Source: Bacteroidales bacterium (GTDB taxonomy: Bacteria; Bacteroidota; Bacteroidia; Bacteroidales; F082). From it: a stretch of 33,073 bases of DNA. Numbering within the stretch: position 1 is the stretch's first letter; each line of letters begins with the position of its first letter. Below, piece by piece: positions 5,886-30,847 of the stretch. The position numbers and the translations under genes were made by a program. Under the pieces are notes generated by a model that was not told the origin of the DNA, searched no databases, and saw only the letters and a list, made by a program, of their open reading frames with translations. The stretch lies in assembly GCA_029933225.1 (NCBI GenBank), contig JAOZOO010000001.1, positions 66,196 through 99,268 on the forward strand, in the 5' to 3' direction.

Positions 5886-5934
5886 AGGTAATGATAAAAT
5901 CAAAAAAGATTGTTTAACTTAAAGTTTATAAACC

Positions 5935-14141: not shown

Positions 14142-14157
14142 AACATAGAATTTCACA

Positions 14158-14279: not shown

Positions 14280-16082
14280 CTACTTTTCCCGGAGATACTC
14301 CATCAGCTTTTCCGTCAGCTTTCCGGATGCCGTGATCAGTGCCTTTTTGGTTGCTTTTTTGGTGTTTTGCCCGGCGCCTTTTACCTGCTCAATGAATGTT
14401 TTAAAAACTTCATCACCGGAAGCATTGTCCGTTACCGACAAGGTAGCATCCACATAGGCAAAATAAACACCCTGGTAACCTGTACCGGTGGTATTGGCTG
14501 CCTTGATGGAGATGGTATAATCGGCACCGGATTTTTTACTGACAAAATGATATCCCTGTTTTGCCAGCCGGTTTTTTATCTCCGGTTCGATGGTTTTGAT
14601 TTGTGCAGGTGTGTTATTGAGGGTTTCCTCACTCGTGATGTAATACGTCTGCGGCACGAACCTGACTGTAAAAATCACCGGTGTTACAGGATTGTTTTTC
14701 ACTGCCGTGACATAATACGCCGAATTGGTGTCTAATTTTGCCCATCCGGCAAGATCGATTTGTCCCTTGATTTCAGTTTTACCTTCTGGCAGGCGTACTG
14801 CTTCAAAATAAGCCTTTGCCACCCCGTTGCTGTTGCTGATTCCCCGGGCCACCGTTTTGCCGTCAACCGTACTGAAAATCAACGGTACATTTTCCATCGG
14901 GATAGTCACACCTCCTTTTTCAATCAACACCCTGACCTGAACCGGTTGGTCGGAGCGTTTCCCGATCTTCACACTGTCGGGAGCATCGATTTCCTGTAAT
15001 TTCACATGTTCCAGCAATCCGATCTTTCTAACCGGTAGTGGAACATAATTTATCTTTTCGGCATTCACCCACGAAACCGGCAAAACGCCTTCGGCTGCTG
15101 CCACCAGCTTATTGAATTTCAGGGCCTGAACGTGGATACGCAATTTATCGCCCTCTTTCCAGTAGTTACCTTTTATTATAAGCGGGTTGTCCGCTGCATT
15201 TTTAAAATCCTTTATCTGGTAGTTCCCGGCTTTGATCAGTGCATTTTTAATCTCCGTATTCCACTTATCGGAAAAGTCGCTGGTGAGTCCCGTATTTTCA
15301 AAAGTCAGCCGGTCAAGCGCCAGCGGAGTTTTTTGTTCCCCCAGTTGCAGTGACAAACCAAAGGCAATAAAATAGGCCGTCTCGCCCAGGTTCAGCTCTT
15401 TCGATTGCTGCAGTTTTGAAATTTCTATGTTCAGTTCCGTTTTCAGGTTGCGTATCTTTTTCATATCATCCGCAACAAACTGCTTCGGGTCAATGGCCAG
15501 CAAAAGCCACTGCGCCTGCTCGGCTTCCGTTGCCAGGGGCATCCCTTCGTAAAAACTTTTCAAAGCATTTTGTTTGTCACCTGAAGCAAGGTATTTTTTT
15601 CCTTCTTTCAGTTTCTCGCTAATCTTTTCCAAGTTTGAAGCAATCAGTTTCCGGTTGTAGTAAACCAGCTCTTTTTTACTGACATAGGCAAATGCATACA
15701 CATCATTCTTTTTCCTGTCGTAATATCTTTCCACGTTTAACCCGGTAACGGTGGCACTGGAAACCGAAGCGCTTTCGGATTTAAACTCTTCAGAGGATTT
15801 TCCGTTCACATTGCTTAAAACCATCGAGGTATTCGTTTCGATGCTCACCTGGATGGACTGTACTACTTTGGCTTTGGCCATTTCTTCGTATTTGTCCATC
15901 AGCTTTCCGGGATCTTCATTCTGGCTGTTGTGCCCCGACACAAACCCGGTGATGTATTCAGACTGGGGATACATCGAGTTTCTTTTGGCATAATCCACCC
16001 ATGCAGGTTGCTGGGCCATGATGCCTGTCGGAAAAACAAACATCAAAATGAAGAGTAATCCGTTTATGCTGTATTTTTTCAT
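14280..16082 (-). CDS. Exported multidomain protein with LPP20-like N-terminal domain
   Basis: A signal peptide (KKYSINGLLFILMFVFPTGIMA) is followed by QQPAWVDYAKR. The next about 130 residues contain YITGFVSG, a long A-K-rich helix (KYEEMAKAKVVQSIQVSIETNTS) and YAFAYVSKKELVYYNRK. This pattern is typical of LPP20/FlgT-N-like domains. A helical stretch of about residues 150-230 looks like a single TPR-type hairpin. Beyond it are a region resembling the middle domains of FlgT/LpoB-type proteins (about 240-335), an Ig-like segment (about 375-460) and a C-terminal alpha/beta domain containing YTISIKAANTTG and YFAYVDATLSV. No lipobox cysteine is present at the cut site, so the protein is likely periplasmic. 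It follows the CsgG-like gene on the same strand by 64 bp, with a hairpin between them. The exact role is unknown. Confidence 0.7.
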   Translation of the reverse strand: MKKYSINGLLFILMFVFPTGIMAQQPAWVDYAKRNSMYPQSEYITGFVSGHNSQNEDPGKLMDKYEEMAKAKVVQSIQVSIETNTSMVLSNVNGKSSEEFKSESASVSSATVTGLNVERYYDRKKNDVYAFAYVSKKELVYYNRKLIASNLEKISEKLKEGKKYLASGDKQNALKSFYEGMPLATEAEQAQWLLLAIDPKQFVADDMKKIRNLKTELNIEISKLQQSKELNLGETAYFIAFGLSLQLGEQKTPLALDRLTFENTGLTSDFSDKWNTEIKNALIKAGNYQIKDFKNAADNPLIIKGNYWKEGDKLRIHVQALKFNKLVAAAEGVLPVSWVNAEKINYVPLPVRKIGLLEHVKLQEIDAPDSVKIGKRSDQPVQVRVLIEKGGVTIPMENVPLIFSTVDGKTVARGISNSNGVAKAYFEAVRLPEGKTEIKGQIDLAGWAKLDTNSAYYVTAVKNNPVTPVIFTVRFVPQTYYITSEETLNNTPAQIKTIEPEIKNRLAKQGYHFVSKKSGADYTISIKAANTTGTGYQGVYFAYVDATLSVTDNASGDEVFKTFIEQVKGAGQNTKKATKKALITASGKLTEKLMEYLREK

Positions 16083-16094
16083 TTGTTTGCGTTT

Positions 16095-16126
16095 ATTTTA
16101 AAACGGACGGGTTAACCCGTCCGTTT
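16095..16126 (-). terminator. Hairpin terminator/attenuator between the CsgG-like and LPP20-like genes
   Basis: Positions 16101-16126 are a perfect 26-bp palindrome. As RNA it gives an 11-bp stem, AAACGGACGGG, with a TTAA loop. On the minus strand it is followed by TTTTAAAATAAA, a modest U-run, and then within about 10 bases by the next ATG. It could end the upstream transcript or attenuate the downstream gene. The perfect dyad could also be a protein-binding site. Confidence 0.6.
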
Positions 16127-16146
16127 GGATAAAATATATACTTAAC

Positions 16147-17412
16147 TTATTTCACATCCGATTTCGGAACATAGCCGGTTTTTGTTCCCCGTAATTGTAT
16201 TTTAATGAATTTACCCTCTTCGCCAAGCACTTTAAACTCCAGCCCGCCGGGCACTTTGGCCACAACCTGTGAAGATTTATCAGGGAATTCAAATACTTCA
16301 ATGCGGTCGGCGCTGCCACCTCTTATTTTCACTCGTTCGGCAAGAGCATTTGCCCCGCCACCGGTAAATGAATAGGGCTGAATAGGTCTGCCGATGTCTT
16401 CGAGATATTTTTCAAGGTCAATGCCCGCTTTTGCCCTTTCGGCAGCTTTCTGGTATTTTTCGTTTGTATAATCCAGCTCATACGCAATGCCGTAATATTC
16501 GGCTGCCTGTTCGTAAGCCCCTACCATTTCGTACAAAACACCAAGATTATAAGCGGTTTTCGGATTGTACGAATCTGCTTCATACATGGCATACACGATT
16601 GGAAAAGCATGATCCAGATCACCTTTTTTCAAAAAGTTCATGGCCTCTTTACCTTTATCCTTGAACTCCTTCAGTTTTACTTTTTCCATGTTATAAACAA
16701 TGTGCTCATAACCGGGTGTGAAATAGTCCACGAATTCCTCGGCCAGTTTTTTCAGGCAGACATCCGCCAGTTGATCGGTTGTCATCACGCCCGAAACTTT
16801 ATCACCGCAACCACTGTCTTTGAATGACGCTGATGCCGTTCTTGTTCCTACGATCTGTGCGGTTTCCACCGAAATGATTTTCATGGTTCCTTTGGCAGTT
16901 ACTGTACGTTTGAGGCATCTTCCCGTCAGTTCCGAGTTTGACCATTCATCGTTATGCGTATAATTTGCATTACCGATAACCAGCACATCCAGTCCGAGGA
17001 GTTTCCCTACCTCCGCAGCAGAGTTTTCATCAATGGCTCCCGAAAGGGCAAGCCGTTGCTCTTTCATTATTTTTTCAAGCTGCTCGCGCTCAATCACTTC
17101 ATAAAAATCCGTTGTCACACCTTTCACAAAAGTCTTTCCTTCGGTTCCTTTCCCCATGCCATAAAAACCACCTTTTTTATTGTAGATTCCCCGGTGCTGG
17201 TTCAGCAGGTCGGCCACAATGTAATTGGTCAGCACAATGTCTTTTCGGCGATTTGTAGAACATTCAAACTTGAGCACACCGATCTTTTTCATATTGTAAA
17301 ACGGTTTTTCCGGCGCCTTCAGAATAAATGTTTCAACCTTTTGTGCTTTTATTGAAGGGATGATCAATAATCCCATCAATAAAAACATGAAAAATTTTTT
17401 AAATGACTTCAT
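16147..17412 (-). CDS. Exported CsgG-like protein with TPR and SH3-like domains
   Basis: The 421-residue protein has a signal peptide (KKFFMFLLMGLLIIPSIKAQ). Residues about 38-235 look like the CsgG/FlgO/LpoB fold: KKIGVLKFECSTNRR, FYEVIEREQLEKIMKEQRLALSG, SAAEVGKLLGLDVLVIGNANY and the later KGTMKIISVETAQIVGTRTASASF. A TPR-like pair follows at about 250-330 (AMNFLKKGDLDHAFPIVYAMYEAD, AYNLGVLYEMVGAYEQAAEYYGIAYELD). The last about 65 residues resemble a bacterial SH3 domain (SQVVAKVPGGLEFKVLGEEGKFIKIQLRG). CsgG-like proteins act at the outer membrane as secretion pores or as lipoprotein activators; there is no lipobox here. It heads the minus arm of the divergent envelope cluster. Pore formation is not implied, because no barrel-forming strands were identified. 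Confidence 0.8.
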   Translation of the reverse strand: MKSFKKFFMFLLMGLLIIPSIKAQKVETFILKAPEKPFYNMKKIGVLKFECSTNRRKDIVLTNYIVADLLNQHRGIYNKKGGFYGMGKGTEGKTFVKGVTTDFYEVIEREQLEKIMKEQRLALSGAIDENSAAEVGKLLGLDVLVIGNANYTHNDEWSNSELTGRCLKRTVTAKGTMKIISVETAQIVGTRTASASFKDSGCGDKVSGVMTTDQLADVCLKKLAEEFVDYFTPGYEHIVYNMEKVKLKEFKDKGKEAMNFLKKGDLDHAFPIVYAMYEADSYNPKTAYNLGVLYEMVGAYEQAAEYYGIAYELDYTNEKYQKAAERAKAGIDLEKYLEDIGRPIQPYSFTGGGANALAERVKIRGGSADRIEVFEFPDKSSQVVAKVPGGLEFKVLGEEGKFIKIQLRGTKTGYVPKSDVK

Positions 17413-17442
17413 ATTTTGATTTGGTTTGGTTACTAATTTATC

Positions 17443-17456
17443 AGATAAAATTATCT
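17443..17456. promoter_or_regulatory. Inverted repeat AGATAA-AA-TTATCT in the divergent spacer
   Basis: A 6-bp inverted repeat around AA lies 31 bp upstream of the CsgG-like start, in the 226-bp AT-rich spacer between the two arms of the cluster. It is a possible operator, but such short dyads are frequent in AT-rich DNA. No TAnnTTTG box for the minus arm was found. Confidence 0.25.
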
Positions 17457-17603
17457 AATTTTTTTGATTTTATGCCCCGCCGCAAATAGTTTGGATAATG
17501 TCTAAATAAAAAAACTGTATTTAGTTTCTTCAAAAAAGAATACATTTTCTGTTTAGAACAGATTAAAATAGCAAATGCCATTCATTGAAATATGTAATTT
17601 TCT

Positions 17604-17611
17604 TATATTTG
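17604..17611 (+). promoter_or_regulatory. Candidate -7 box for the plus arm of the envelope cluster (TATATTTG)
   Basis: TATATTTG is an exact TAnnTTTG match, with a TTG at 17585-17587 about 16 bp upstream as a possible -33 box. It lies 28 bp before the ATG at 17639 and would drive the whole plus-strand run to 24227. Confidence 0.5.
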
Positions 17612-17638
17612 AGAAATTACTTAATGAAATTAAAAGAC

Positions 17639-18280
17639 ATGAAAAAAATTAATTACTTATTCATTTTTGTTCTTGCTGCATTGATTGCTGTCCCGGCCTT
17701 TGCCCAGAGCGAAAAAGAACTTAAAAAAGAGATCAAGGAAAAAGCCTTGAAAGATGCCCGGAAAGAAGCCAAACGGCTGAAAAAAGACGGCTTTTCGGTT
17801 GCGCCGGGACAATTGCCCATGGACAAACAAATCGAGAACACATGGATAAAAAGGTATGAAGTGACTGATGATGGGAACCCCAAATATTTCGTTGCCGACG
17901 CCCGGGCCACAGGTGAAACGCATTCTGCTGCCAAGATGCAGGCATACGAAATGGCCAAAATCAACATTGCGGAACAAATCGGCTCAAAAGTGGCCGGACT
18001 GGTTGAAACCAAACTGGCCAACTCGCAATTGAATGCCGAAGAAGCGGCATCCATCACCAAAACCGTTGGCAGTTTCAAATCCAAAGTCAAAGCCGACATC
18101 GGCAATATGCTCACACTGTTCGAAGCTTCCAAAAACATCGGGAAAAACACCGAAGTGTTCATCACACTCGCCTACGGCTATGATGCAGCCATGAAACTGG
18201 CCAAAGAAAAGCTGAGAAAACAAATGGAAGCCGAGGCCGATGTGAATGCCAAACAACTGGATGATATTCTTGATTTTTAA
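17639..18280 (+). CDS. Small exported LPP20-like protein
   Basis: The ATG at 17639 opens directly into a signal peptide (MKKINYLFIFVLAALIAVPAFAQ). Upstream in-frame TTG and ATG codons (17585, 17624) would add a hydrophobic or charged extension and are less likely. The mature part is about 190 residues. It starts with a very charged helix (EKELKKEIKEKALKDARKEA) and continues into an LPP20-like domain with a VADARATGETHSAAKMQAYEMAKINIAEQ helix and a VFITLAYGYDAAMKLAKEKL end. LPP20-like folds occur in FlgP and other outer-membrane-associated proteins; there is no lipobox cysteine. It starts the plus arm of the envelope cluster, 7 bp ahead of the transglutaminase-like gene, which suggests translational coupling. 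Function is not known. Confidence 0.7.
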   Translation: MKKINYLFIFVLAALIAVPAFAQSEKELKKEIKEKALKDARKEAKRLKKDGFSVAPGQLPMDKQIENTWIKRYEVTDDGNPKYFVADARATGETHSAAKMQAYEMAKINIAEQIGSKVAGLVETKLANSQLNAEEAASITKTVGSFKSKVKADIGNMLTLFEASKNIGKNTEVFITLAYGYDAAMKLAKEKLRKQMEAEADVNAKQLDDILDF

Positions 18281-18287
18281 TTCAAAG

Positions 18288-20927
18288 ATGAGTTCCATTC
18301 ATTCAGGCCACCGGCAGATTAGAAATCTATGTATTGTTTTATCTGTTTTTCTGCTCTCTATTTTAACTACTGCGGCACAAACCTTCGATGAGTTTGAAAA
18401 ACAGATTGATGAAGATTTTGCTGCGTTCGAGAAAAAAACGGATAAGATTTTTGATGATTATGTAAAAAAAATCGATCAGGAGTTTGCCGATTATCTTGCT
18501 GCCAATTTCAAGGAATACACACTGCAAAAATCAGAGCAAAAGAAGACCGGGCCCAAACCTGACAAAGTCCCCCGTTACACGGAAATCCCCGAAAAGAAAC
18601 GGGAGGAGATCAAAGTTACGGGAACGGCAGAGACCCTGGAAGAAAACAAAGTGATTTTGCCTGTAGTAAAAAAACAGGGAATAACGGATTTTGAGACCCG
18701 GAAGCTGGCTTTCGGTTTTTTCGGCACACCATTGAAATTTGTTTACGATGTGAATATCATTGCCCCTGCACGCAATATCCTTTCGGCCGGAGACATTGCT
18801 GCCTACTGGGAGGAGATGAGTAAAACCTGGTACAACCCGCTGCTCGACCAGTTCGATAACTACCGTCAGGTTCTGAACCTCAACGACTGGGCTTATTATC
18901 AGATGATCAGGAAATTTTCAGCCACCGCTTACCCGGATAATGAAAACATGCAAAACCTGCTGACATGGTTTCTGCTCACCCGTTCAGGGTATAAAAACCG
19001 TATTGCATTTGGTAATTTACACACCTACGTTTTAATATCATCAGTCTATCCGCTGGCCGGCAGCTATGTCCGGCTGAACAACATTAATTATTATTTGCCG
19101 GGTGAGGATCTCGGCCAGGCAAAAACCTATGCAAAAGATTTTCCGCAAGCGGATAAGATACTGGACATGAGCATCTCAAAGCCGATGAACCTGGCAGAGA
19201 AAAAGGTTGACAAACCATTTCATTTTAATCATGGCGGGAGAGATTATGAGGTTTCGTTAAGTTACAATCAAAACCTGATTGACTTTTACAACACCTGCCC
19301 CCTGGCCGATTTGAGTCTTTATTTCAACAGCGTGCCCGGCCCTGAGACCAAAAACTCGGTTTTACGGGCTTTCCGTCCGCTCATTACAGGGAAATCAAAA
19401 ATTGAAGCGGCAAACCTGCTGCTCAGCTTTGTACAGCAGGCCTTTGCCTACAAAACCGACCAGGATGCCTACGGAAAGGAAAAATATATGTTTGCCGACG
19501 AATTGCTTCATTATCCTTATGCCGATTGCGAAGACCGTTCGGTGCTGTATGCTTATCTGGTCAGAACGTTGCTGAACCTCGAGGTGACGGGACTCACTTT
19601 TCCGGGGCATGTAGCCACGGCTGTTCATTTCCTGAAAAATCCTCCGGGTGAATACATTTCGTATGCACGGAAAGAGTTCGTGATCGCCGATCCCACGTTC
19701 ACCGGCGCTCCGGTAGGTATGCTGATGCCGGGTATCAACAAATCGGAAGCAGAAATCATTGAGGTCAAACAGGATGTGATTTACCGGAATAAGGCAGCGG
19801 AAATATGGGATGTGGTCAGGAAATACGGCGGTTACCGGGGAGATGTTTTGCAGGATGTGGTGTTTGCTCCCTCGGGCAATGCTTACGTGTGCGGATATTT
19901 TGTCAAAGAAGCCAATTTCAGGCAATTTCATCTTGCATCCGATTTCGAAGGTCGCGATATGTTCATCGCCAAGTTTGATCCCGCGCTGAATCCGGTATGG
20001 GTGAAAACGGCCACGGGGCCTGGCAACGACATGGCGTACAGTATTGCCCTCGACCCCAGGGGTATTCTTTATGTTTACGGCAGCTTTGAAGAGTCACTGA
20101 ATTTCGGCGGACAAACCATCGAAGCCACCGGTGCGCCGGATGTATTTGTAACACGCTACGCCCCCAACGGGGATGTGCGCTGGGTAACCAAGGCAGGTAT
20201 TGACAAGGTGGACCATTCGGCTAATTTTATGTTTTCCGCTGTTTTTAACCCCGCCGGCCAAAAGACCAGTGCCCGTCTTTACAACGAAACCAAAAACTTT
20301 GATTTTTACGGGTTAAACCTTGACGGTAACGGCAACGCCGTGATCACCGGATCGTTTTATGCCACCACCGGGCTGAATACAACGGATTTCGAGAATTACA
20401 ATTTCGGCAGCGAATTCAACATCCCCAACGCTTTGTATGATACCAGTTACCGTCTCCACTCAAAATTGAATTACGAACGAACCATAGCGGGACTTTTTGC
20501 GGCTTTACGCCTCATCCGGTTCAACAGCTTCGAACTGAAAGGTTCAGCACTTCAGAGTACAATTGAAAAACACAACCAACCTTTTATTGAACAGGCCGCT
20601 GATTTTTACAAAAACATGGGGAAAATGAAATTTGTGATCAACAACACGGGCATTGTGGTCATCAATACCGAACAACGGGCACCGGTTGATTTCGGGTTTA
20701 TCAGAATAAATAACAATGCACGTCTCAAGGTCATCATTTACGAAAACGGGAATTCAAAACTCGATATACTTTCCGGAATTGAGGTTGTGGATCCGACCGG
20801 CGAAGCGCGGTTTGACATGAACAGCGTTTCGCTTTCAAAGGAAAAAGGCGATTTGTTGCTGGATTATGATGATGACCACACCAAAATACAGGTCAATCTA
20901 AAGGAAGATTTACTACATTTGAATTAG
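18288..20927 (+). CDS. Exported transglutaminase-like protein with beta-propeller repeats
   Basis: The start at 18288 gives 879 residues and a signal peptide (NLCIVLSVFLLSILTTAAQ). The next about 50 residues form charged heptads (FDEFEKQIDEDFAAFEKKTDKIFDDYV), probably a coiled coil. A transglutaminase-like core follows, with the expected triad: Cys414 in YADCEDRSVLYAYL, His441 in FPGHVATAVHF and Asp468 in VIADPTF. This fold is used for cross-linking, proteolysis or as a binding scaffold. Next come SBBP-type beta-propeller blades (DVVFAPSGNAYVCGYF, FIAKFDPALNPVWVKTA, LYVYGSFEESLNFGG, FVTRYAPNGDVRWV). The last about 260 residues are unrecognised. It is separated by 7 bp from the LPP20-like gene and by 21 bp from the channel gene. 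The triad looks intact, but no substrate can be proposed. Confidence 0.75.
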   Translation: MSSIHSGHRQIRNLCIVLSVFLLSILTTAAQTFDEFEKQIDEDFAAFEKKTDKIFDDYVKKIDQEFADYLAANFKEYTLQKSEQKKTGPKPDKVPRYTEIPEKKREEIKVTGTAETLEENKVILPVVKKQGITDFETRKLAFGFFGTPLKFVYDVNIIAPARNILSAGDIAAYWEEMSKTWYNPLLDQFDNYRQVLNLNDWAYYQMIRKFSATAYPDNENMQNLLTWFLLTRSGYKNRIAFGNLHTYVLISSVYPLAGSYVRLNNINYYLPGEDLGQAKTYAKDFPQADKILDMSISKPMNLAEKKVDKPFHFNHGGRDYEVSLSYNQNLIDFYNTCPLADLSLYFNSVPGPETKNSVLRAFRPLITGKSKIEAANLLLSFVQQAFAYKTDQDAYGKEKYMFADELLHYPYADCEDRSVLYAYLVRTLLNLEVTGLTFPGHVATAVHFLKNPPGEYISYARKEFVIADPTFTGAPVGMLMPGINKSEAEIIEVKQDVIYRNKAAEIWDVVRKYGGYRGDVLQDVVFAPSGNAYVCGYFVKEANFRQFHLASDFEGRDMFIAKFDPALNPVWVKTATGPGNDMAYSIALDPRGILYVYGSFEESLNFGGQTIEATGAPDVFVTRYAPNGDVRWVTKAGIDKVDHSANFMFSAVFNPAGQKTSARLYNETKNFDFYGLNLDGNGNAVITGSFYATTGLNTTDFENYNFGSEFNIPNALYDTSYRLHSKLNYERTIAGLFAALRLIRFNSFELKGSALQSTIEKHNQPFIEQAADFYKNMGKMKFVINNTGIVVINTEQRAPVDFGFIRINNNARLKVIIYENGNSKLDILSGIEVVDPTGEARFDMNSVSLSKEKGDLLLDYDDDHTKIQVNLKEDLLHLN

Positions 20928-20948
20928 ATTTGGAAGAATGTCAGCCGT

Positions 20949-22784
20949 ATGAAAAACGACTTACGCTACTTTTACCTTCGTTTTAAAAACCGCGTTTTCA
21001 CACAGGTTATACCTGTGTTATTGTTTTTATTATTAAATGTGTTGTTCGCAGGCAGTGCTTTCCCGCAAAGCGAAAAAGACACCATTTCCATATCGGAGCT
21101 TATCCAACGGATGCAGGCCGACACCGATCCCATAGAGATCAGTAATGTGGTTATTGAGTTCAGGCCGGGCGATAAAAAATATGCGCAAAACAAAGTCTTT
21201 TACTGGGTTTACAGTATCAAACCGTCATCTCCGGGGGCCAAGCGGATTTATTTTTACGATTGTGATTTCAACACCGGTAAAAAAGCACCGCTGATCCTCG
21301 AGGGCTGGGAGTTCCGAAAGATGAACATGATCGGTTGTAAATTAAAGACTGATTTTTCATTTGAAAACTGCAAACAGTCAGGCCGTTACCCGATGCGTTT
21401 TGAGAACAACGTTTTTTATGACAATCTGCAGTTTGAAGGAAAAGACTCACTGACCTCCGTTCAATTTCTTAATTGCAGGTTCGGAAAACAATTGCTGGTG
21501 GAAACCAAACCCGGTGAATTTGAAATGGATGAGTGTGTTTTTGATGCCGACACCCTGAAATTCGGAAGAAGTATCGAAGGAAGAACCCTGTTTCAGTTAA
21601 GTTTCGCCGGGCAGAAAGCGGAGGATATTACCATTACCAACACGATATTCAGAAACAACGGATTAAACAATCTTTATTCTTTAAGTTTTGAAGGTGCAGA
21701 AGTGGAAAAGATCACCCTGCTGAATAATAAAATGGCATCCATTGATTTTACGGATATACAGGTAGAAAAGTCAATACTTATTGATTCGCTGAACGTGTCC
21801 GGTTTTATCGGGGTGCAGAATTTCGACTTCCCGGAGTCGAACACCAACATACCGTGGTATAATATTGCCGGAGAAAAGCTGGCCATCTTCCAGTTTTCAG
21901 AGTCTGATCAGATCATTCCCTATCAGGCCAAAACAAAAAATCAATTGTTAAACACTTTGCTTTACAACGATCTTGTAAGCGCATACAACAAGTTCAATAC
22001 CATTTACCACAGCCGGGGCGACATTTATTCGGCCAACCGGTCGTATGTTGAGATCAAAACCATAGAAACCCGCAGGCAAAAGTATCTGTTGGAAGAACAA
22101 TGGGACCTGAATGTTTACATCAATTACAAACTGAATGTATTTTTAAGCGATTTCTCGGATTTTGCCACCAATCCCGGAAAATCTTTACTTAAATCGGTGT
22201 GGGTACTTATTATCTTTACGGTTTTATACATGCTTACCTATTCGAAGTGGGATGACATGGATTATAACTATTTTATTGTTCAGTATTCCCGTTTTTCGCA
22301 ATACCTCAAGGAGAAACCTAATAACATTAAAGATGTTTACGGGGAGGACTATGAAAAACAATTCAAAGAGATTGAATCACTTGAAGAGAAATACATCCAG
22401 GCAGGCAAAAAAGCTCCCGTAGTCATCAGGTTAATGGGCAACCTGCTTTATCATCTTGGAAAATTCCGGTACACAATCATGCCGGGACTGATCCGGTTTT
22501 TCAACTTCCGGCCCGGAAAATGGAAAATAACCAATGGAATCAACAAAGTGCTTACCGTTATATTGATCAGTGTCATTTCCATTCTCTTTTTCGCCTATGT
22601 ACTTGTAGTTAAATTTATTGCCTCTTTTATGATCAGTCTGAACTGCTTTGTTGTGGTCGGTTTCGGCAACCTGCCCGAAAATGGATTTGCAAAATATTTT
22701 TCCGTTATCGAAGGTATTCTCGGCTGGTTTTTATTAACAATATTTACCATCACCCTGCTGAGTCAGGTGTTGCAGAGTGCTTAG
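20949..22784 (+). CDS. Beta-helix protein with potassium-channel-like pore domain
   Basis: The 611-residue protein starts with a signal-like hydrophobic segment (residues 18-37, ending AFPQ). Residues about 60-320 consist of short beta-strand repeats in the style of pentapeptide or right-handed beta-helix proteins, such as FYDCDFNTGK, MIGCKLKTDFSFENC and FLNCRFGKQL. A linker (LVSAYNKFNTIYHSRGDIYSANRSYVEIKTIETRR) resembles that of pentapeptide-repeat channel proteins. One membrane segment lies at about 411-431. A second lies at 532-556, a re-entrant pore at 560-577, and a third at 583-606. The pore reads CFVVVGFGNLP, recalling the K+ channel filter TxGFGD, with Val for Thr and Asn for Asp. The IEGILGWFLL helix fits Ion_trans_2 proteins. 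It is likely an inner-membrane channel with a periplasmic sensor; conduction and ion preference are inferred only. Confidence 0.7.
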   Translation: MKNDLRYFYLRFKNRVFTQVIPVLLFLLLNVLFAGSAFPQSEKDTISISELIQRMQADTDPIEISNVVIEFRPGDKKYAQNKVFYWVYSIKPSSPGAKRIYFYDCDFNTGKKAPLILEGWEFRKMNMIGCKLKTDFSFENCKQSGRYPMRFENNVFYDNLQFEGKDSLTSVQFLNCRFGKQLLVETKPGEFEMDECVFDADTLKFGRSIEGRTLFQLSFAGQKAEDITITNTIFRNNGLNNLYSLSFEGAEVEKITLLNNKMASIDFTDIQVEKSILIDSLNVSGFIGVQNFDFPESNTNIPWYNIAGEKLAIFQFSESDQIIPYQAKTKNQLLNTLLYNDLVSAYNKFNTIYHSRGDIYSANRSYVEIKTIETRRQKYLLEEQWDLNVYINYKLNVFLSDFSDFATNPGKSLLKSVWVLIIFTVLYMLTYSKWDDMDYNYFIVQYSRFSQYLKEKPNNIKDVYGEDYEKQFKEIESLEEKYIQAGKKAPVVIRLMGNLLYHLGKFRYTIMPGLIRFFNFRPGKWKITNGINKVLTVILISVISILFFAYVLVVKFIASFMISLNCFVVVGFGNLPENGFAKYFSVIEGILGWFLLTIFTITLLSQVLQSA

Positions 22785-22805
22785 AAAATTATCAAAAAAA
22801 AACAA

Positions 22806-23726
22806 ATGATTATGAAACATTTTATATTATCCCTTATCATTATCCTGCTTGCAACAGGCAGTTTTGCAACCGTCCTGAAAAAAGGTGACAGTTTGCAAAT
22901 TCTTTACAAACGCGTTTGGGCCTATGAAAATCCGGAAGACTTTTCCACACGGTTGGGGCCTTATTCCTACCTGAAAAAAATGATTTTTATCAGTGAAAGC
23001 GGGGAATATCCCGGTTATTATCAGGTAATAACACCGGATGGGAAAACCGCACTTATTAAAAAACATCTGCTGGCCGGCAGTCCCGGAATTACCAAAAAAC
23101 AAGTGCTGAATGATATCAGCGAAGGCAAACGGGAAAAAAACCAATACACGAAATTTCATTTCCTTGACAGGAAAAAACTGGGTTTATCACGATGGGCGAT
23201 GGTTGGTATATATGTGTTGATTCTGGCCTTATTGTTAGCTATTTGGTTCTTTTTTCCCCGCTTCGACCGGTGGATGCTCCGGCTTGATGGTAAAAATGAA
23301 TCGAATGCACAATTGCCCTGGTTTATCAAATATGCCGCTTTGCTTGGAATTGTTATTGGCGGAATAATGCTTTTCAAACCGGCTGAAACCGAATGGTTTC
23401 TGAATGAAGGTCTCCGACTTTGGGCCAATTACCCGACTTTTTGGGATTGGATACTCTGGGGACTTTGTCTGCTTTTTGCCGTTGACCTGATCGCCGGAAT
23501 AGTCACACCCTTCTTTCGTTTTTCCCTTGTTTTTGCCATTCTTTATGCGATCATTGCACTGGTTTTAATGTCATTATATTTTCTCGCTGGAATTGCCTCC
23601 GGCGGATTAATTGTCATCATCGCCATCATTATTTTCATTATATCGATTTTAGGAGGAGGCGGGAAAAGTTATGATGTTGTGGATAGTAGTACAGGACAGA
23701 AGGTGGGAACCATAAGCGGAGTATAA
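22806..23726 (+). CDS. Membrane protein with exported SH3-like domain
   Basis: This 306-residue product starts with a signal peptide (MKHFILSLIIILLATGSFA); the ATG at 22806 or 22812 gives nearly the same protein. Residues about 24-92 form a small beta domain (LKKGDSLQILYKRVWAYENP, GYYQVITPDGKTALIKKHLL) resembling bacterial SH3 modules. A charged linker leads to four or five membrane segments at about 130-150, 172-190, 210-232 and 235-285. The last ones are unusually rich in Ile, Val and Gly (GLIVIIAIIIFIISILGGGG). The short tail has VVDSSTGQKVGTISGV. It is 21 bp after the channel gene, and the next gene starts directly at its stop, so it belongs to the same operon. I do not recognise the family. 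Confidence 0.65.
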   Translation: MIMKHFILSLIIILLATGSFATVLKKGDSLQILYKRVWAYENPEDFSTRLGPYSYLKKMIFISESGEYPGYYQVITPDGKTALIKKHLLAGSPGITKKQVLNDISEGKREKNQYTKFHFLDRKKLGLSRWAMVGIYVLILALLLAIWFFFPRFDRWMLRLDGKNESNAQLPWFIKYAALLGIVIGGIMLFKPAETEWFLNEGLRLWANYPTFWDWILWGLCLLFAVDLIAGIVTPFFRFSLVFAILYAIIALVLMSLYFLAGIASGGLIVIIAIIIFIISILGGGGKSYDVVDSSTGQKVGTISGV

Positions 23727-24227
23727 GTGGATACTGCTGCAGCTACCGGTGATGTTTTTTCTGATGGATGGACTTTTTATTTTCTTTCTTTCCTAATGCT
23801 GGTGGTGCTGTATTTTATCCAAAAGTATGCTTTCCTGATCGACAGAAAACTGAACCTGATGGACAAAACAGGGAATAATTGGGAAGGAAAACCCTGGCCA
23901 CTGGTTTTTGCCTTGATGCTGGGCATGTTCATTTTGCTTTACAATGTTTTTTCTCCACGGGGCATGCAACCAAATCCTGCCGACTGGCGCTGGCCGGAAT
24001 GGGGGTTGGTTTTTAGTTCTCTCATCCTGCTGACCCTGCTTGCGTATGAAAGTTTCTCCCGCTTCGGAAAACGCATCGGGCTGATCCGGTTTGTAATATT
24101 CGTACTTTTATCCGCAGGGTTCTTTTTTGGTGGACTATACGCAGGGTTGTTGATCGTTTTGTTGCTGGCCTTTCTGATGCTGGTTTACTTTATCAGATTC
24201 TGGCGGAGGAGGATGAAGATCGATTAA
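23727..24227 (+). CDS. Small polytopic membrane protein, GTG start
   Basis: The frame opens with GTG directly after the TAA of the preceding gene, with no intervening base. No early ATG fits, since the first internal Met is already inside a membrane segment. The 166-residue product has four or five hydrophobic segments (about 15-34, 57-76, 90-108, 118-150), a KPWPLVFALMLGMF stretch and a basic end (RFWRRRMKID), consistent with a cytoplasmic C-terminus. Zero spacing suggests translation by re-initiation, in fixed ratio with its neighbour. It closes the plus-strand operon, and repeats follow. The function is not recognisable. Confidence 0.6.
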   Translation: MDTAAATGDVFSDGWTFYFLSFLMLVVLYFIQKYAFLIDRKLNLMDKTGNNWEGKPWPLVFALMLGMFILLYNVFSPRGMQPNPADWRWPEWGLVFSSLILLTLLAYESFSRFGKRIGLIRFVIFVLLSAGFFFGGLYAGLLIVLLLAFLMLVYFIRFWRRRMKID

Positions 24228-24472: not shown

Positions 24473-25315
24473 ATGCTAAACTTCCTCATTTCCATCGTCG
24501 TCTTTGCCGCTTCCGTTTTTCTGCTGGGCGTTTCCATCCGCTATGGTTTGCGGAGCGCCGGACGGCTCGATGAATATTTTACAGCAAAATCAAACAGAAG
24601 CTTCACCGGATTCAACTGGTATTACCGCATTCCGTTTTCTGTCGGATTTATTCCGGAATATTATTTCTATCTCGTCATCGGCAGGGACAATTATTTCAAA
24701 ACCAACTGGTGGCCTTTGAAGACATCGGCTTTTATTTCGGTATTGCTCTCCCTTGCCATCCTGAAAAGCCGGTCGGCAGTGTATGATTATTTCACCCTTG
24801 CTTTTGTAAAACAACACGGATTTACCGCCCTTTTCACATCCGGCAGTTTTATCTGGTTCCTGAACATAATCACCCTGCTCTATTTTGTTCTTTTTGTGCT
24901 GGTCGTTATTGAAAGTATAAAAATGCACGGCGCATATTCTCCGGTCAGGATAATTATTTACACCGTTTTAAGCTTTCTGATGGCTGACCTGACCATCATT
25001 GTTCTCGGCCTGATTGTTTTGTTTTCGGTTATCTATATTATCCTGAAAATCATTAAATTTATTTTCTTTTCAAGCAAAAGATCCCGTCATCGTGAAGAGG
25101 AGGACGATGACGAGACCTTAACGGAAACATGGCAAAAAGGTCTTACCCCGTTCAAAGCGGAGGTGAAAGCGTGGGAACAGGAATTAAAAGCCGGAAGAGT
25201 GAGGAGAACCAAATCGAAAAAGCCGAAACACAAACCGAAAATCCGCAGAAGAAAACCGAAGATCAAACGAACAACTACTTTCGATGATGACATCCCGCGA
25301 TTGCATCCTGACTGA
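24473..25315 (+). CDS. Polytopic membrane protein with long basic C-terminal tail
   Basis: The 280-residue product has an N-terminal membrane segment (about residues 3-24), two central ones (about 82-97 and 118-146) and a long hydrophobic stretch (about 160-203). The remaining about 75 residues are hydrophilic. They start with acidic EEEDDDE, then become extremely Lys/Arg-rich (TKSKKPKHKPKIRRRKPKIK), and end DDDIPRLHPD. Such a tail may bind nucleic acid, acidic lipid or a protein partner, but nothing decides between these. There are 245 bp of repeats between it and the operon before it, so it may be transcribed separately. I do not recognise the family. Confidence 0.6.
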   Translation: MLNFLISIVVFAASVFLLGVSIRYGLRSAGRLDEYFTAKSNRSFTGFNWYYRIPFSVGFIPEYYFYLVIGRDNYFKTNWWPLKTSAFISVLLSLAILKSRSAVYDYFTLAFVKQHGFTALFTSGSFIWFLNIITLLYFVLFVLVVIESIKMHGAYSPVRIIIYTVLSFLMADLTIIVLGLIVLFSVIYIILKIIKFIFFSSKRSRHREEEDDDETLTETWQKGLTPFKAEVKAWEQELKAGRVRRTKSKKPKHKPKIRRRKPKIKRTTTFDDDIPRLHPD

Positions 25316-25446: not shown

Positions 25447-25603
25447 AACAAATTATAATTACACAGTATAATATTATGTTTCAATATGTTAAGTCGCCCT
25501 GTTTTTTTAAATATTTCTTTGTGAACCTTTGGGTCTTCTCCGCGTACCTCTGTGTAACAGCTATTTCACAATCCCGAAATTACCGGACAAAAAAGAAACT
25601 TTA

Positions 25604-26680
25604 ATGAAGAAGAAAGAGATTATTAACGATGTCATTAATAAACTTTCCGACGCTCTCTCAAAAGAACGGCTGAAGGGATATTACGGAACGCCCGATTCCA
25701 CAGAAAAGATCGGGCTTTTTGAACAGGCATTCGGCGTGGAACTCCCCTATTCATTCAAAGTTTTCCTCCGCAATTTCGACGGATTGTTCATCGCAGACCG
25801 GGAAACCGAAAACATGATACAGGCCGGGGAAATGGAAGAGGCGAAATGGAACAGCACCCGCATCTTAAGCATTGATGAAATCATCGAGGAATATGAGAAC
25901 CTTTATCTTGACGACTGGAAACTGGAACCAAATTTTGATGGGTTTTATCCGTACATTCCTTTTTGCATCACTGCAGAAAACGAGAAACTGATTTTTATTG
26001 ACAATTCGCTTCAAAAGGAAGAATCAAAAGTCTTTGCGGCTTTTCACGATACCCCGGCTTCCGGCTGGTTTGCGGCTTTTGAAAATTTTACGGAGTTCCT
26101 GATTGACTTTTACAACAGAGGAGGAAATCCTGACCTGTTCTCAAATCAATCGGAGGCGACTGTTGAAACCTACCTTGAACGGCTCAACGACAGAGAGGAA
26201 GAAAAAGACGACCCCGCAGAAGTCGTTAAACGCACGACCGCCTACCTGGAACTATTTCCCGACAATTCCATTAAGTACACCATCAGGGGGGATGCCTATG
26301 CTGACCTGAAGCAGTATAAAAAAGCGCTGGCTGATTTCGAAAAAAGTCTCGAACTGGACCCGAAACTGGCGCTGGCCTATTATTGTCGCGGCAGCATGCT
26401 GCTGTCGCTGAAAAAAGCCCGGCAGGCACTCATTGACCTCGACTCAGCCTGTAAGCTTGAACCCGGCGATTCTTATTACCTGAACGGCAGGGCCGAAGCA
26501 TTTTTCGCTTTAAACAGGATAGATGAAGCGTTATCCGATTGCAATAAAGCCATTAAAATTGATAACCGGTATTTCAGCGCTTATTATCTGCGGCGCAAAA
26601 TTTACACCGCCCTGGGGCAAACCGGAAAAGCGGAAGCTGATGCGAGGGTGATTGAAGAGTTACTGGAAGAAGATGAATAA
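25604..26680 (+). CDS. SMI1/KNR4 (SUKH) domain fused to TPR repeats
   Basis: The ATG at 25604 is chosen because upstream codons run through repeat DNA. The 358-residue cytoplasmic product (no signal peptide) begins with a helix (KKKEIINDVINKLSDAL). A SUKH-type core follows: FEQAFGVELPYSFKVFLRNFDGL, then WNSTRILSIDEIIEEYENL and IPFCITAENEKLIFIDNS. Residues about 205-355 form four TPR motifs, for instance YTIRGDAYADLKQYKKALADFEKSLELDPKLALAYY. SUKH domains are common among immunity proteins of polymorphic toxin systems and also occur in housekeeping scaffolds; TPRs mediate protein binding. No toxin gene is adjacent, so an immunity role is not supported directly. It is followed by the repeat-preceded ATPase. 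Confidence 0.8.
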   Translation: MKKKEIINDVINKLSDALSKERLKGYYGTPDSTEKIGLFEQAFGVELPYSFKVFLRNFDGLFIADRETENMIQAGEMEEAKWNSTRILSIDEIIEEYENLYLDDWKLEPNFDGFYPYIPFCITAENEKLIFIDNSLQKEESKVFAAFHDTPASGWFAAFENFTEFLIDFYNRGGNPDLFSNQSEATVETYLERLNDREEEKDDPAEVVKRTTAYLELFPDNSIKYTIRGDAYADLKQYKKALADFEKSLELDPKLALAYYCRGSMLLSLKKARQALIDLDSACKLEPGDSYYLNGRAEAFFALNRIDEALSDCNKAIKIDNRYFSAYYLRRKIYTALGQTGKAEADARVIEELLEEDE

Positions 26681-26833: not shown

Positions 26834-28156
26834 ATGGAAAGAGATATTCACAAAAAACTTCTTGAATGGAAAAACTCAACAATACGTAAGCCTTTGATGA
26901 TCAAAGGAGCACGCCAGGTGGGGAAAACTTATAGCGTGATGGAGTTCGGGGAAACCCATTATAAAAAAGTGCATCAAGTCAATTTTGAGAAAAATCCGAA
27001 ATGGAAAGAGGTTTTTGAAACGGATCTGGACGCAGAAAGAATTCTCGGAGAACTGGAGGTTCTACTTAATTCCAGAATAAACTTTGAAGAAGATCTTTTG
27101 TTTTTTGACGAAATACAAAATTGCCCGAACGCTATTATGTCATTACGGTATTTCTATGAACAATTGCCCGAAGTTCACCTGATAGCTGCGGGATCGCTTC
27201 TTGAATTTGCTTTAAAAAACATCTCCTTTCCGGTAGGCAGGGTTCAAACCCTGGAAATGCTGCCCATGAGTTTTCCGGAATTTTTAAAAGCTTCAGGTAA
27301 AGAGAAAATATATGATATCGTCACATCACCTCCTGAAAAGCTTTCACCGGTAATTCACCAAACAATACTTGAAGAGGTTTTTAATTACTTTTTTGTCGGC
27401 GGCATGCCCGAAGCCGTCAGGCATTATATTGAAACAGGAAGAATTTCAGAGATTTTTGAGATCCATTCCGATCTGATTTATACATACACTCAGGACTTCT
27501 CCAAATATTCTCCTGCCGTGAACCGGGATTGTCTATATATGGTACTCATTTCGGCGGGTAAATCCGTTGGAAGCCAGATAAAATACTCCCGGCTGGCTGA
27601 AGGTTTCTCAAATCCTACCATTAAAAGCGCTTTTACAGCACTTGCAAATGCACGGTTGGTCAGAAAAGTAAAAGCAGCCAGTCCGGCAGGACTGCCTCTG
27701 GAAGCAGGAGCCAACGAAAAAATATTTAAATCCGTCTTTCTGGATATCGGGTTGATGGCACACATCAACGGGCTAAACAACAGCTACCTGGAAATCAAGC
27801 ACAACATAAACTCTGTATTCAATGGCGCAATGGCAGAACAATTTGCAGGGCAGGAATTTCTGGCGGCAGGACAAAAAAATCTCTATTACTGGTCAAGACA
27901 GTCCAAAAGCAGCAATGCCGAAGTGGATTATTTGTTACAATGCGAAAATGATATTTGCCCTGTTGAGGTTAAAAACAGTGCTTACGGGCGTTTGAAAAGT
28001 CTGCATTTGCTACTTGAGCTTTATCCCAACATTAAAAAGGCCTATGTTCTCTCGCATGCCGAATACGGAAAAGCCGAATACGGAAAAGTGGAATTTACAC
28101 CTTTATACTATGCCAATTATATCGCTTCAACTTCCAAATTTGAATCCCACACCTGA
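26834..28156 (+). CDS. AAA family ATPase, DUF4143
   Basis: The 440-residue protein carries Walker A (MIKGARQVGKTY, about residues 22-33), Walker B (DLLFFDEIQNCPNA, about 92-105) and a sensor segment (HLIAAGSLLEFALKN). The GRVQTLEMLPMSFPEFLKA stretch is diagnostic of this family. The C-terminal DUF4143 domain ends in a PD-(D/E)xK-like arrangement: AEVDYLLQCENDICPVEVK. The family is very widespread and its function is not established. The three 33-bp repeats just upstream suggest autoregulation or a bound partner. The last 30 bp overlap the end of the convergent AAA gene. The final residues contain a small duplication, AEYGKAEYGKVE. Confidence 0.9.
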   Translation: MERDIHKKLLEWKNSTIRKPLMIKGARQVGKTYSVMEFGETHYKKVHQVNFEKNPKWKEVFETDLDAERILGELEVLLNSRINFEEDLLFFDEIQNCPNAIMSLRYFYEQLPEVHLIAAGSLLEFALKNISFPVGRVQTLEMLPMSFPEFLKASGKEKIYDIVTSPPEKLSPVIHQTILEEVFNYFFVGGMPEAVRHYIETGRISEIFEIHSDLIYTYTQDFSKYSPAVNRDCLYMVLISAGKSVGSQIKYSRLAEGFSNPTIKSAFTALANARLVRKVKAASPAGLPLEAGANEKIFKSVFLDIGLMAHINGLNNSYLEIKHNINSVFNGAMAEQFAGQEFLAAGQKNLYYWSRQSKSSNAEVDYLLQCENDICPVEVKNSAYGRLKSLHLLLELYPNIKKAYVLSHAEYGKAEYGKVEFTPLYYANYIASTSKFESHT

Positions 28157-30847
28157 ATTCCTGCGTGAGCTTTCTGCTTTGAACTCCCGGACATCTTCCA
28201 GCATCAGCGTACCCATGGCTGCCGGCGTTCTTTTCTCTTTGGGCAATGAAGCCATACGCAGCTCCTGGTTCCGGTGGGCTTTTTCCACCATCTTCCTGAC
28301 AGCACGGGCATTACCGAAAAACTTATCGCGGTTGGCATAAAGTGCCGATAAATATTCCCGGATATGGTCGCCAGCTTGTTCATCCGGTTTCAGCGATTTG
28401 TCTTCAAGCATTCGCAGAGCGATGGTGTAAAGCTCTTCCTCCGTGAAATCCTGAAAATGGAATTTACGGTCAAAACGGGAGTCGAGTCCGGGATTGGATT
28501 TCAGAAAACGTTTCATGTTTTGCGTGTAGCCGGCAACGATCAGCCCGAATTCTTTCCGGTTGTCTTCCATTTGCTTGATCAGTGTGACCACCACTTTTTT
28601 CCCGAATTCATTATTATGGCCTTCAGTCAGCGAATAGGCCTCATCAATAAAAAGGATACCACCTTGTGCTTTTTTAATCACCTCCATGGTTTTGAGTGCT
28701 GTCTGTCCCACATACCCGGCCACAAGATCGCTGCCGTCGGCATCAATGAGATGTCCCCTTTCGAGCAGGCCCAGCGCTTTGTAAAACTTGCCCATGATGC
28801 GGGCCACCGTTGTTTTCCCTGTCCCAGGATTTCCCATAAACACACTGTGCATCGAGAAAACTTTCAGCACATCGCGCCCCATTTCCTTGTAATATTTTGT
28901 CAGCTTAACCAGTTCGGTGATTTCCTGCTTGATGTTTTCCAGTCCGATCAGCTTATCCAACTCTGACTGTGCTTCCTTCAGCAGTTCCTGGTCAATGGGA
29001 AGATGCAGTATTTTATCATCTTTCATGACGCTGATGTCCTCGATGTCTTCCATTTTGATCTCCGACAGTTCTCTTTTTGTAAAATTTCCCGTTTTGTTTG
29101 TTTTCATCAACCGGATACCGAGGTTCATTTTGGCTTCATCCACCAGGGCATGGGCAAAGCGGGCATTGCCAAAAGTTCTGTCCCGTTTCCGGTAGGCAGC
29201 GGTAACTATCTTTTCAATCTTTTTTCTGGCTCCCGCCGAAAAATAAACGTCTCTTTCCTTTGCTGCATACTCGGCAATTTTCATCAGTTCATCCGGCGTA
29301 TAATCTTCAAAATGAAAATGATTTCTTATTCTTGAATTCAAACCGGGATTGGAATTCATAAGATTTTCCATTTCCTTTGGATAGCCCGCCATGATAATGG
29401 CAATATCGCCGTCGCCGTCGCTCATCTCCGTGATCAGTGCAGCAATGGCTTCCGGGCCGAAATCACTTCCGCCGGTGTCTTTATAAAGCATATACGCCTC
29501 GTCAATGAACAAAATGCCACCCCGTGCTTTTTCAATGGCCGCTTTGGTATCTTTTCCCGTTTGTCTTACATAGCCCGAAACCAGGTCGGTGGCTTCCACG
29601 GTATGCACATGTCCTTTGGAAAGAAGCCCAATCGCATGATAAATCCTGCCCAGCAATTTAACCACGGTCGTTTTGCCCGTGCCCGGGTTTCCGGTAAATC
29701 TCGCATGCAGTGTGATTTCGTCTTCCTCTTCAAATCCTCTTTCTTCACGTATCTGCAAATAGCTCATGTAATCAACGTACTCCCTTATCTTTTTCTTGAT
29801 GGTCTCCAGCCCCACCAACTTGTCGAGGTCAAGCATGATCTCTTCCAGCGGCCGGTCGTCAATGATGATGTTTTCTTTTTCCGTTTCCTGATTTTTAGAG
29901 TCTGAAACAGGTTCTTCTATTTTTTCTTCCGTTTCCGGTTTTTCATCGGTAAGCGTTGAATCTTTTAAAGCGGCCCCGGAGAACTGCTGATGTACTTCTT
30001 CATTCACAAGCGCTTCGTAATCGCTGATCCTTTCCACGAATTTATTTCCAATGGAAAAAGGAACTATCGCAACGACGGTATCCATAAAAATCACTTCCAT
30101 GGTATAATTGTCCTCAATCCAGAAACCCGGTTCGCGGGAACCCCATCCCGCACCGACAGTAAAAATTTCTCCGGCATCTTCTTCAGGGGTTATCAATATC
30201 ATGGTATCACTGGAGCCGATCAACTGCCCCGTGTCATCATAAATGTTGAAAAAGAACTCACTCAGCCATTCTTCAGGCAGCTTATTCTCAAATCTGAGCT
30301 CCCCCATGATGTAACGGGTTTTGTTCCTGTCAAACTTCTTGTAATATTTTCGTTTGTCGATTTCCACATCTCCGTAAGGCGCTTCATAAGTACGCAGTGT
30401 CAAAACCTTGAAATAGGGATTATTGCTTTCCGATACATATCCGTGGTCTTCGATGTAAAACTTTGCCGTCCCCACCAGCTCGTCTTCGATGTAAGCTTCC
30501 CAGAGGTAGCTCCCTTTTTGCCAGTATTTCCCGAACTCCTCATTACCCCAGCCGTAATCTACTGTTACGACATTCTGATCCGATTTTACCTCAATTGTTT
30601 TCTTCTCAACACAATGCTCAATGGTTTTTTTACCGTCATCAATTGTATATGCCTTCAGTGTAATCTCTGTCTCCCAGTCCTTTTCGTCAAACAGCTTATT
30701 GTAAAATGCTAATTCAATGCTTATATAATTGATCTCCCAGCGTTCATACAATCTCCTGAATTTTTTCACATTAGTGAGCGCTTTACTCCACGAATAAGGG
30801 CGCAGACTTTTAAATTTATAATATGATTTTTTATTTTTCCCGAACAT
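28127..30847 (-). CDS. Tandem CbbX/SpoVK-type AAA protein with duplicated beta-rich N-terminus
   Basis: The 906-residue protein has two AAA modules of the CbbX/CfxQ/SpoVK type. The first (about residues 340-600) has Walker A GNPGTGKTT (386-394) and Walker B GGILFIDEAYML. The second (about 625-890) has GNPGTGKTTVARIMG, GGILFIDEAYSL and the terminal arginine-finger region SNPGLDSRFDRKFHF. Each is followed by the FGNAR lid signature. Before them, two beta-rich copies (about 40-135 and 178-268) share a pattern of GWG..E.G, an aromatic-rich turn, and E-x-hydrophobic strands ending F-x-I; an acidic linker (about 300-330) follows. CbbX-type AAA proteins remodel protein partners, such as inhibited Rubisco. 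The N-terminal pair probably recognises the target here, which is unknown. It is divergent from fur and overlaps the ATPase stop by 30 bp. Confidence 0.85.
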   Translation of the reverse strand: MFGKNKKSYYKFKSLRPYSWSKALTNVKKFRRLYERWEINYISIELAFYNKLFDEKDWETEITLKAYTIDDGKKTIEHCVEKKTIEVKSDQNVVTVDYGWGNEEFGKYWQKGSYLWEAYIEDELVGTAKFYIEDHGYVSESNNPYFKVLTLRTYEAPYGDVEIDKRKYYKKFDRNKTRYIMGELRFENKLPEEWLSEFFFNIYDDTGQLIGSSDTMILITPEEDAGEIFTVGAGWGSREPGFWIEDNYTMEVIFMDTVVAIVPFSIGNKFVERISDYEALVNEEVHQQFSGAALKDSTLTDEKPETEEKIEEPVSDSKNQETEKENIIIDDRPLEEIMLDLDKLVGLETIKKKIREYVDYMSYLQIREERGFEEEDEITLHARFTGNPGTGKTTVVKLLGRIYHAIGLLSKGHVHTVEATDLVSGYVRQTGKDTKAAIEKARGGILFIDEAYMLYKDTGGSDFGPEAIAALITEMSDGDGDIAIIMAGYPKEMENLMNSNPGLNSRIRNHFHFEDYTPDELMKIAEYAAKERDVYFSAGARKKIEKIVTAAYRKRDRTFGNARFAHALVDEAKMNLGIRLMKTNKTGNFTKRELSEIKMEDIEDISVMKDDKILHLPIDQELLKEAQSELDKLIGLENIKQEITELVKLTKYYKEMGRDVLKVFSMHSVFMGNPGTGKTTVARIMGKFYKALGLLERGHLIDADGSDLVAGYVGQTALKTMEVIKKAQGGILFIDEAYSLTEGHNNEFGKKVVVTLIKQMEDNRKEFGLIVAGYTQNMKRFLKSNPGLDSRFDRKFHFQDFTEEELYTIALRMLEDKSLKPDEQAGDHIREYLSALYANRDKFFGNARAVRKMVEKAHRNQELRMASLPKEKRTPAAMGTLMLEDVREFKAESSRRNSGVGFKFGS

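Follow-up and report, generated by a model that had tools for sequence, protein, structure and literature searches.

A conserved divergent gene cluster of Bacteroidales combines LPP20- and CsgG-like proteins with a LapG-fold peptidase-like protein and a channel-like protein

Results

A conserved envelope gene cluster

We analysed a 33,073-nucleotide stretch of the genome of a Bacteroidales bacterium (assembly GCA_029933225.1, contig JAOZOO010000001.1, positions 66,196–99,268; hereafter the window), which carries a divergent cluster whose core, genes A to E, is conserved as one unit in relatives. A and C are LPP20-like, B is CsgG-like, D is a predicted periplasmic protein with the fold, triad and calcium motif of LapG-type cysteine peptidases, and E is a predicted inner-membrane protein that joins a periplasmic beta-helix to a channel-type pore motif. 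These genes very probably form one functional unit. An earlier note, made from the sequence of the window, had described the cluster as a candidate undescribed envelope system and suggested a trans-envelope sensing or channel complex; the conserved A–E unit bears out the former, no open-licence paper describing the cluster was found, and the latter is plausible. The window genome consists of 361 contigs and is 92% complete.

Conservation was followed with B and E, both searched in the same 100 related genomes, with E < 1e-100 counted as a strong match. Strong matches to E were found in 24 genomes and to B in 24; both occurred in 23 and neither in 75, and in the two single-gene exceptions (G002 and G027) the genes sit at the ends of short contigs. 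The hypergeometric p for this co-occurrence is ∼1e-20, although the genomes are not independent, and chance linkage of the cluster genes was rejected on these counts. Strong matches were confined to one family-level group, in which presence is patchy (∼24 of 60 genomes); 40 other families sampled gave no strong match to B or E. The full set A–E is present in all 23 genomes, where the gene orders B-A and C-D-E are preserved, as is the divergence, and the pairwise distance matrices of the five proteins correlate with r of 0.83–0.96. The arms lie on different contigs in G053 and G012, in G012 at a contig end. All seven families, A to G, had been expected to stay together; the unit found here is A–E, and F, which weakly resembles G, lacks an orthologue of its own in relatives.

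Further members recur in 7 to 13 loci (G, H, a SUKH-TPR protein and a CbxX-type ATPase; Table 1). The cluster thus reaches H, SUKH-TPR and sometimes the CbxX-type ATPase, beyond position 24227, where it had been taken to end. A Zn-ribbon-like gene of ∼240 amino acids (aa), X, occupies the spacer of 20 loci and is absent from the window. Between X and B, one subclade (L056, L059, L060 and L062–L065) has an insertion comprising a HerA-like ATPase (seven loci) and an MltC-like lytic transglycosylase (six loci, that is, all save L065, whose locus is cut off).

Patchy presence, together with SUKH, AAA+ and HerA-type partners and a caspase in a sister cluster (see below), would fit an anti-phage or abortive infection system in which envelope perturbation triggers a protease and a depolarizing channel. 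We consider this quite improbable: the core genes have closely matching distances and give no hint of rapid mosaic turnover, and PADLOC gave no match for A–F, H and SUKH-TPR (G was left out of this search), while for the partners CbxX and HerA its matches were generic AAA/HerA ones only. For want of a PADLOC match, a known defence system was rejected for the core.

D resembles LapG-type cysteine peptidases

D had initially been read as a transglutaminase-like protein with propeller blades. The propeller stands, as aa 496–693 match that of CylK, and is of the SBBP/CylK type (Table 1). The catalytic part is better read as a LapG-type peptidase by its fold, triad and calcium motif, and a classical transglutaminase was given up on the basis of the Foldseek results and Z scores. 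In the D structure model (predicted local distance difference test, pLDDT, 88.7; predicted template modelling score 0.88), aa 303–496 match LapG chains with Foldseek probabilities of 0.96–1.00 and Z scores of 9–10.5 (4u65_E, probability 1.00; 4fgo, probability 0.99 and template modelling score 0.48 by target). As the Foldseek E-values are modest, 5e-3 at best, the assignment leans in large part on the triad and motif. C414, H441 and D468, along with D413, E415, D416 and R417, are invariant in an alignment of 50 sequences from several phyla. In the LapG homologue DvhG (PMC13090378), C317 acts as the nucleophile and calcium is bound by D316 and E318; the D-C-E order is the same in D. D is probably an active peptidase.

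A sequence search of solved structures with the D catalytic domain returned no match. In the window genome, PF06035 did not match D at E ≤ 1, in a search whose control gives matches elsewhere, and no GGDEF domain was detected in the 92% of the genome that is covered. Accordingly, D is LapG-like without being a member of a Lap system. A propeller-less D core occurs in Gammaproteobacteria, Cloacimonadota, Poribacteria, KSB1 and other groups (taxonomy from the records of metagenome-assembled genomes). Full-length D itself, as distinct from the A–E set, is present in the cultured species Odoribacter laneus, Labilibacter marinus and Carboxylicivirga linearis. Of 72 D genes of either kind, 39 have an LPP20-family gene at most two genes away, versus 10 of 782 background open reading frames (ORFs), as counted with profiles partly built from such neighbours, 16 of 25 of which match Pfam LPP20 independently. 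Not every D gene is so paired: of the 23 that have the core only, 14 are without an LPP20 neighbour.

E combines a beta-helix with a pore motif

The proposal of a beta-helix protein with a channel pore held up, E having a pentapeptide/beta-helix part and a two-transmembrane pore unit with a GFG filter. Its predicted topology runs from a signal-like segment and the periplasmic beta-helix through a first transmembrane segment (aa 412–430) and a cytoplasmic linker to two further transmembrane segments that enclose the pore loop (Table 1). The beta-helix model has a pLDDT mostly > 85. A fold search gave no match to the transmembrane half of E, but as the matches listed were filled by beta-helix proteins, this negative carries no weight. 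The filter motif GFGxxP is near-invariant among 27 homologues, one of which has GYG. E itself does not appear under PF07885 (Ion_trans_2); its paralogue in L069 passes, with 25.3 versus 22.5 bits. E is likely to conduct ions. Paralogues of E with a near-canonical TLGFG filter were seen in other gene contexts in L067, L068, L069 and L071.

A, B and C as a putative periplasmic scaffold

Profile searches, named beforehand as a means of refuting the proposal, supported the CsgG and LPP20 assignments. For B, the CsgG-TPR-SH3 call was confirmed: B matches CsgG (PF03783) with 38.2 bits (cut-off 20.8) and also matches TPR and SH3_3, and among 14 homologues CsgG was found in 14, SH3_3 in 13 and TPR_1 in 9. 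The two LPP20 calls are supported more weakly. A scores 17.8 bits with LPP20 (PF02169), under the cut-off of 25.9, yet spans the full profile; it aligns with LPP20 neighbours in profile-profile comparison (76%, E 2e-5), and of 13 homologues eight match DUF4136 and four LPP20. An A relative from that genome's second D cluster reaches 25.7 bits against the same cut-off. C itself has no Pfam match and found none in a PDB search; its assignment comes from a profile-profile link (90–93%, E ∼1e-6) to the D-linked family, 16 of whose 25 members match PF02169.

The CsgG domain found in every B homologue scanned could point to a secretion or surface-display apparatus, with B as an outer-membrane pore and D processing an exported substrate in the manner of LapG. 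Surface adhesins are targets of LapG proteases (PMC13090378), and the HerA-like ATPase and lytic transglycosylase of one subclade would suit such a machine. Against it, a lipobox-like motif was present in none of 24 B sequences, and C166 and C202, invariant in the 14 homologues, fall in hydrophilic stretches at what we take to be the positions of the CsgG membrane hairpins, as read by eye from the alignment and not from a structure. These two findings leave the idea of B as an outer-membrane pore or ring without support. Moreover, CsgF was not found in the genome, and neither a substrate gene nor a cleavage site is conserved. We hold the secretion reading to be quite improbable. A search of solved structures with the CsgG domain of B alone gave no match.

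A link to peptidoglycan and a second D cluster

The MltC-like lytic transglycosylase of the related loci matches the N-terminus of D (88.7%, E 2.5e-6, aa 8–61, part of this being signal peptide), and by sequence the two look as if they dock on one partner via a common N-terminal segment. The enzyme also occurs in the window genome, in a second D cluster (L177; G000:C60:5048–14661), which encodes an LPP20 lipoprotein, the LPP20-like protein c11, a D paralogue, a YfaP-like protein, a caspase (C14, E 2e-43) with a Fib_succ_major domain, an LPP20/DUF4384 protein and the MltC-like enzyme. Clusters of this type (L177 and L115-like loci) share with the window a D paralogue, an LPP20 lipoprotein and an A-like protein; they differ in having neither a CsgG-like B nor a channel E, and in their own caspase and YfaP-like genes.

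These observations bear on a second explanation, a module for remodelling or tethering peptidoglycan and the outer membrane, in which A–C would be LpoB/FlgP-type accessories, D, joined in some clades by the lytic transglycosylase, would trim envelope proteins, and E would be an osmotic safety valve with no signalling from D. The MltC-like enzyme in both settings argues for it, as do the SH3b domain of B and the finding that FlgP rings are built by LPP20-fold proteins (PMC12222027). However, no lytic transglycosylase is encoded in the window cluster itself, and E is always inherited with A–D in this family. Such a module is possible, though on balance we doubt it.

Discussion

A tentative model

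We tentatively propose an accessory trans-envelope system made up of an LPP20/CsgG-like scaffold, a protease and a regulated cation channel of the inner membrane. A, B and C would form a periplasmic scaffold close to the peptidoglycan and the outer membrane, on which D, as a calcium-dependent LapG-type cysteine peptidase, would dock via its N-terminal helix and propeller. E would provide a potassium-channel-like pore in the inner membrane, with its beta-helix in the periplasm. A signal arising in the envelope (calcium, damage or a change of spacing) might change the scaffold and D; proteolysis or contact by D could then shift the gating of E, and the resulting cation flow would report the state of the envelope to the cytoplasm (the SUKH-TPR and AAA+ partners). 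We infer D activity, E conduction, contact between D and E and the direction of control from the genes and models. The coupling of D to E is a rather doubtful step. Less likely again is the most specific version, that a LapG-type calcium-dependent protease on an LPP20/CsgG-like scaffold directly gates a beta-helix-receptor cation channel without cyclic di-GMP (c-di-GMP), the D core representing an undescribed, often LPP20-paired protease family of several phyla.

Several observations weigh against this model. The arms of G053 (L051 and L052) lie inside two different contigs, so that either the arms can part and both persist or the bin is misassembled. An order-wide sample found B outside the family only once, in a genome of another family (G515; L190, G515:C442), which has A, B and C side by side, all running the same way, and neither D nor E; the scaffold therefore has uses of its own. 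The LapG-type cleavage site [TAP]AAG is conserved in none of A–E, G, H and X. Model confidence is only moderate for the pore half of E. Lastly, K+ channels carry threonine in the selectivity filter, where E mostly has V, A or S, making K+ selectivity doubtful.

To our knowledge, CsgG/LPP20-type proteins are widespread in bacterial envelopes, and their roles beyond curli and flagella are largely unknown. Here they are tied genetically to a probable enzyme and a probable ion channel, so their role becomes testable. The D family, with its LapG fold and LPP20 neighbours, would amount to a broad class of periplasmic peptidases, as yet without a name, that operate independently of c-di-GMP and span Bacteroidota, Gammaproteobacteria, Cloacimonadota, Poribacteria, KSB1 and others. 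Searches of the open-licence literature returned no paper combining CsgG, LPP20 and transglutaminase, CsgG, LPP20 and HerA, or LPP20 and transglutaminase-like proteins, and a search for BTLCP gave general papers only; these negatives are weak evidence of novelty.

Layout of the locus and neighbouring genes

The seven ORFs A–G were found as originally described, in a leftward arm (A and B) and a rightward arm (C–G) that diverge from a single 226-bp spacer holding a Bacteroidota-type −7 element, TATATTTG. F and G are the two further membrane proteins that had been predicted. Signal-like hydrophobic segments stand at the N-termini of six proteins, A–F, where five had been counted. An NCBIfam search named no core protein above cut-off.

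Table 1. Features of the cluster, numbered from the first nucleotide of the window.
Feature	Position	Strand	Basis
A, 600-aa secreted protein with N-terminal LPP20-like domain (aa 26–134); DUF4136-like matches in homologues	14280..16082	-	Profiles; in 23 of 23 complete loci
B, 421-aa secreted CsgG-like protein with TPR and SH3b	16147..17412	-	Profiles, signal-like segment
CsgG-like part of B, aa 99–206	16795..17118	-	CsgG profile; invariant C166, C202
Divergent promoter spacer	17413..17638		TATATTTG at 17604–17611 (+)
C, 213-aa secreted LPP20-family protein	17639..18280	+	Profile-profile link
D, 879-aa periplasmic LapG-fold cysteine peptidase-like protein with SBBP/CylK-type propeller	18288..20927	+	Alignment, structure model
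D aromatic-rich N-terminal helix, aa 33–72	18384..18503	+	Model; common to MltC-like lytic transglycosylase of related clusters
D putative catalytic Cys414 (within D413-C414-E415), His441, Asp468	19527..19691	+	50-sequence alignment
D beta-propeller, aa 496–693	19773..20366	+	CylK Z 14.6; CylK sequence E 1e-19
E, 611-aa inner-membrane channel-like protein with periplasmic beta-helix	20949..22784	+	Topology, model
E beta-helix domain, aa 44–330	21078..21938	+	Z ∼17 to beta-helix proteins; pentapeptide protein match 9e-5
E pore loop, filter GFGxxP (aa 571–576), between transmembrane segments 536–554 and 586–604	22614..22688	+	27 homologues
F, 306-aa protein with several transmembrane segments	22806..23726	+	Partial likeness to G
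G, 166-aa protein with four transmembrane segments	23727..24227	+	13 loci
H, 280-aa membrane protein, adjoins G in relatives	24473..25315	+	13 loci
SUKH (SMI1/KNR4)-TPR cytoplasmic protein, often next in arm	25529..26680	+	11 loci
CbxX-type double AAA+ protein, closes cluster in some relatives	28127..30847	-	7 loci

AAA_14/DUF4143 ATPases at 12951–14156 (-) and 26834–28156 (+) flank or interrupt the cluster; since relatives are without them at this place, they may be recent insertions in the window. Elsewhere in the window, a large secreted protein bearing a CHU_C type IX secretion signal is encoded at 7312–9939 (-), and two overlapping ORFs on opposite strands, of 186 aa (-) and 335 aa (+), occupy 5919–6942, the minus-strand ORF having no Pfam match.

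Comparison with known systems

D, itself predicted to be secreted, shares with LapG/DvhG (BTLCP) of the Lap system the fold, the C-H-D triad and the D-C-E calcium and nucleophile motif. It differs in its additional N-terminal helix and propeller and in lacking a PF06035 match, and the cluster, to which the search for a substrate was confined, holds no [TAP]AAG substrate. As no GGDEF protein was found in the genome, control of D by c-di-GMP and LapD is not expected.

The parallel that had been drawn with FlgO/FlgP/FlgT extends to shared domains, LPP20-type in C and A and CsgG-like in B, and stops there, the outer-membrane ring being unsupported. Unlike those proteins, the ones encoded here are partnered with a protease and a channel. 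The flagellar export gene FlhA (FHIPEP) was not found in the genome, in agreement with the earlier remark that flagellar genes are lacking here, and a flagellar system was rejected. A curli system was likewise rejected for want of CsgF in the genome: B is akin to the CsgG curli channel in passing the PF03783 cut-off, and departs from it in the missing lipobox, the added TPR and SH3b domains and the probable absence of membrane hairpins. E, finally, resembles potassium-type channels with two transmembrane segments (Ion_trans_2) in its pore architecture and GFG filter, and an E paralogue passes the family profile; it stands apart from them in a filter without the usual threonine and in the periplasmic beta-helix, a sensor-like domain, to which the pore is joined.

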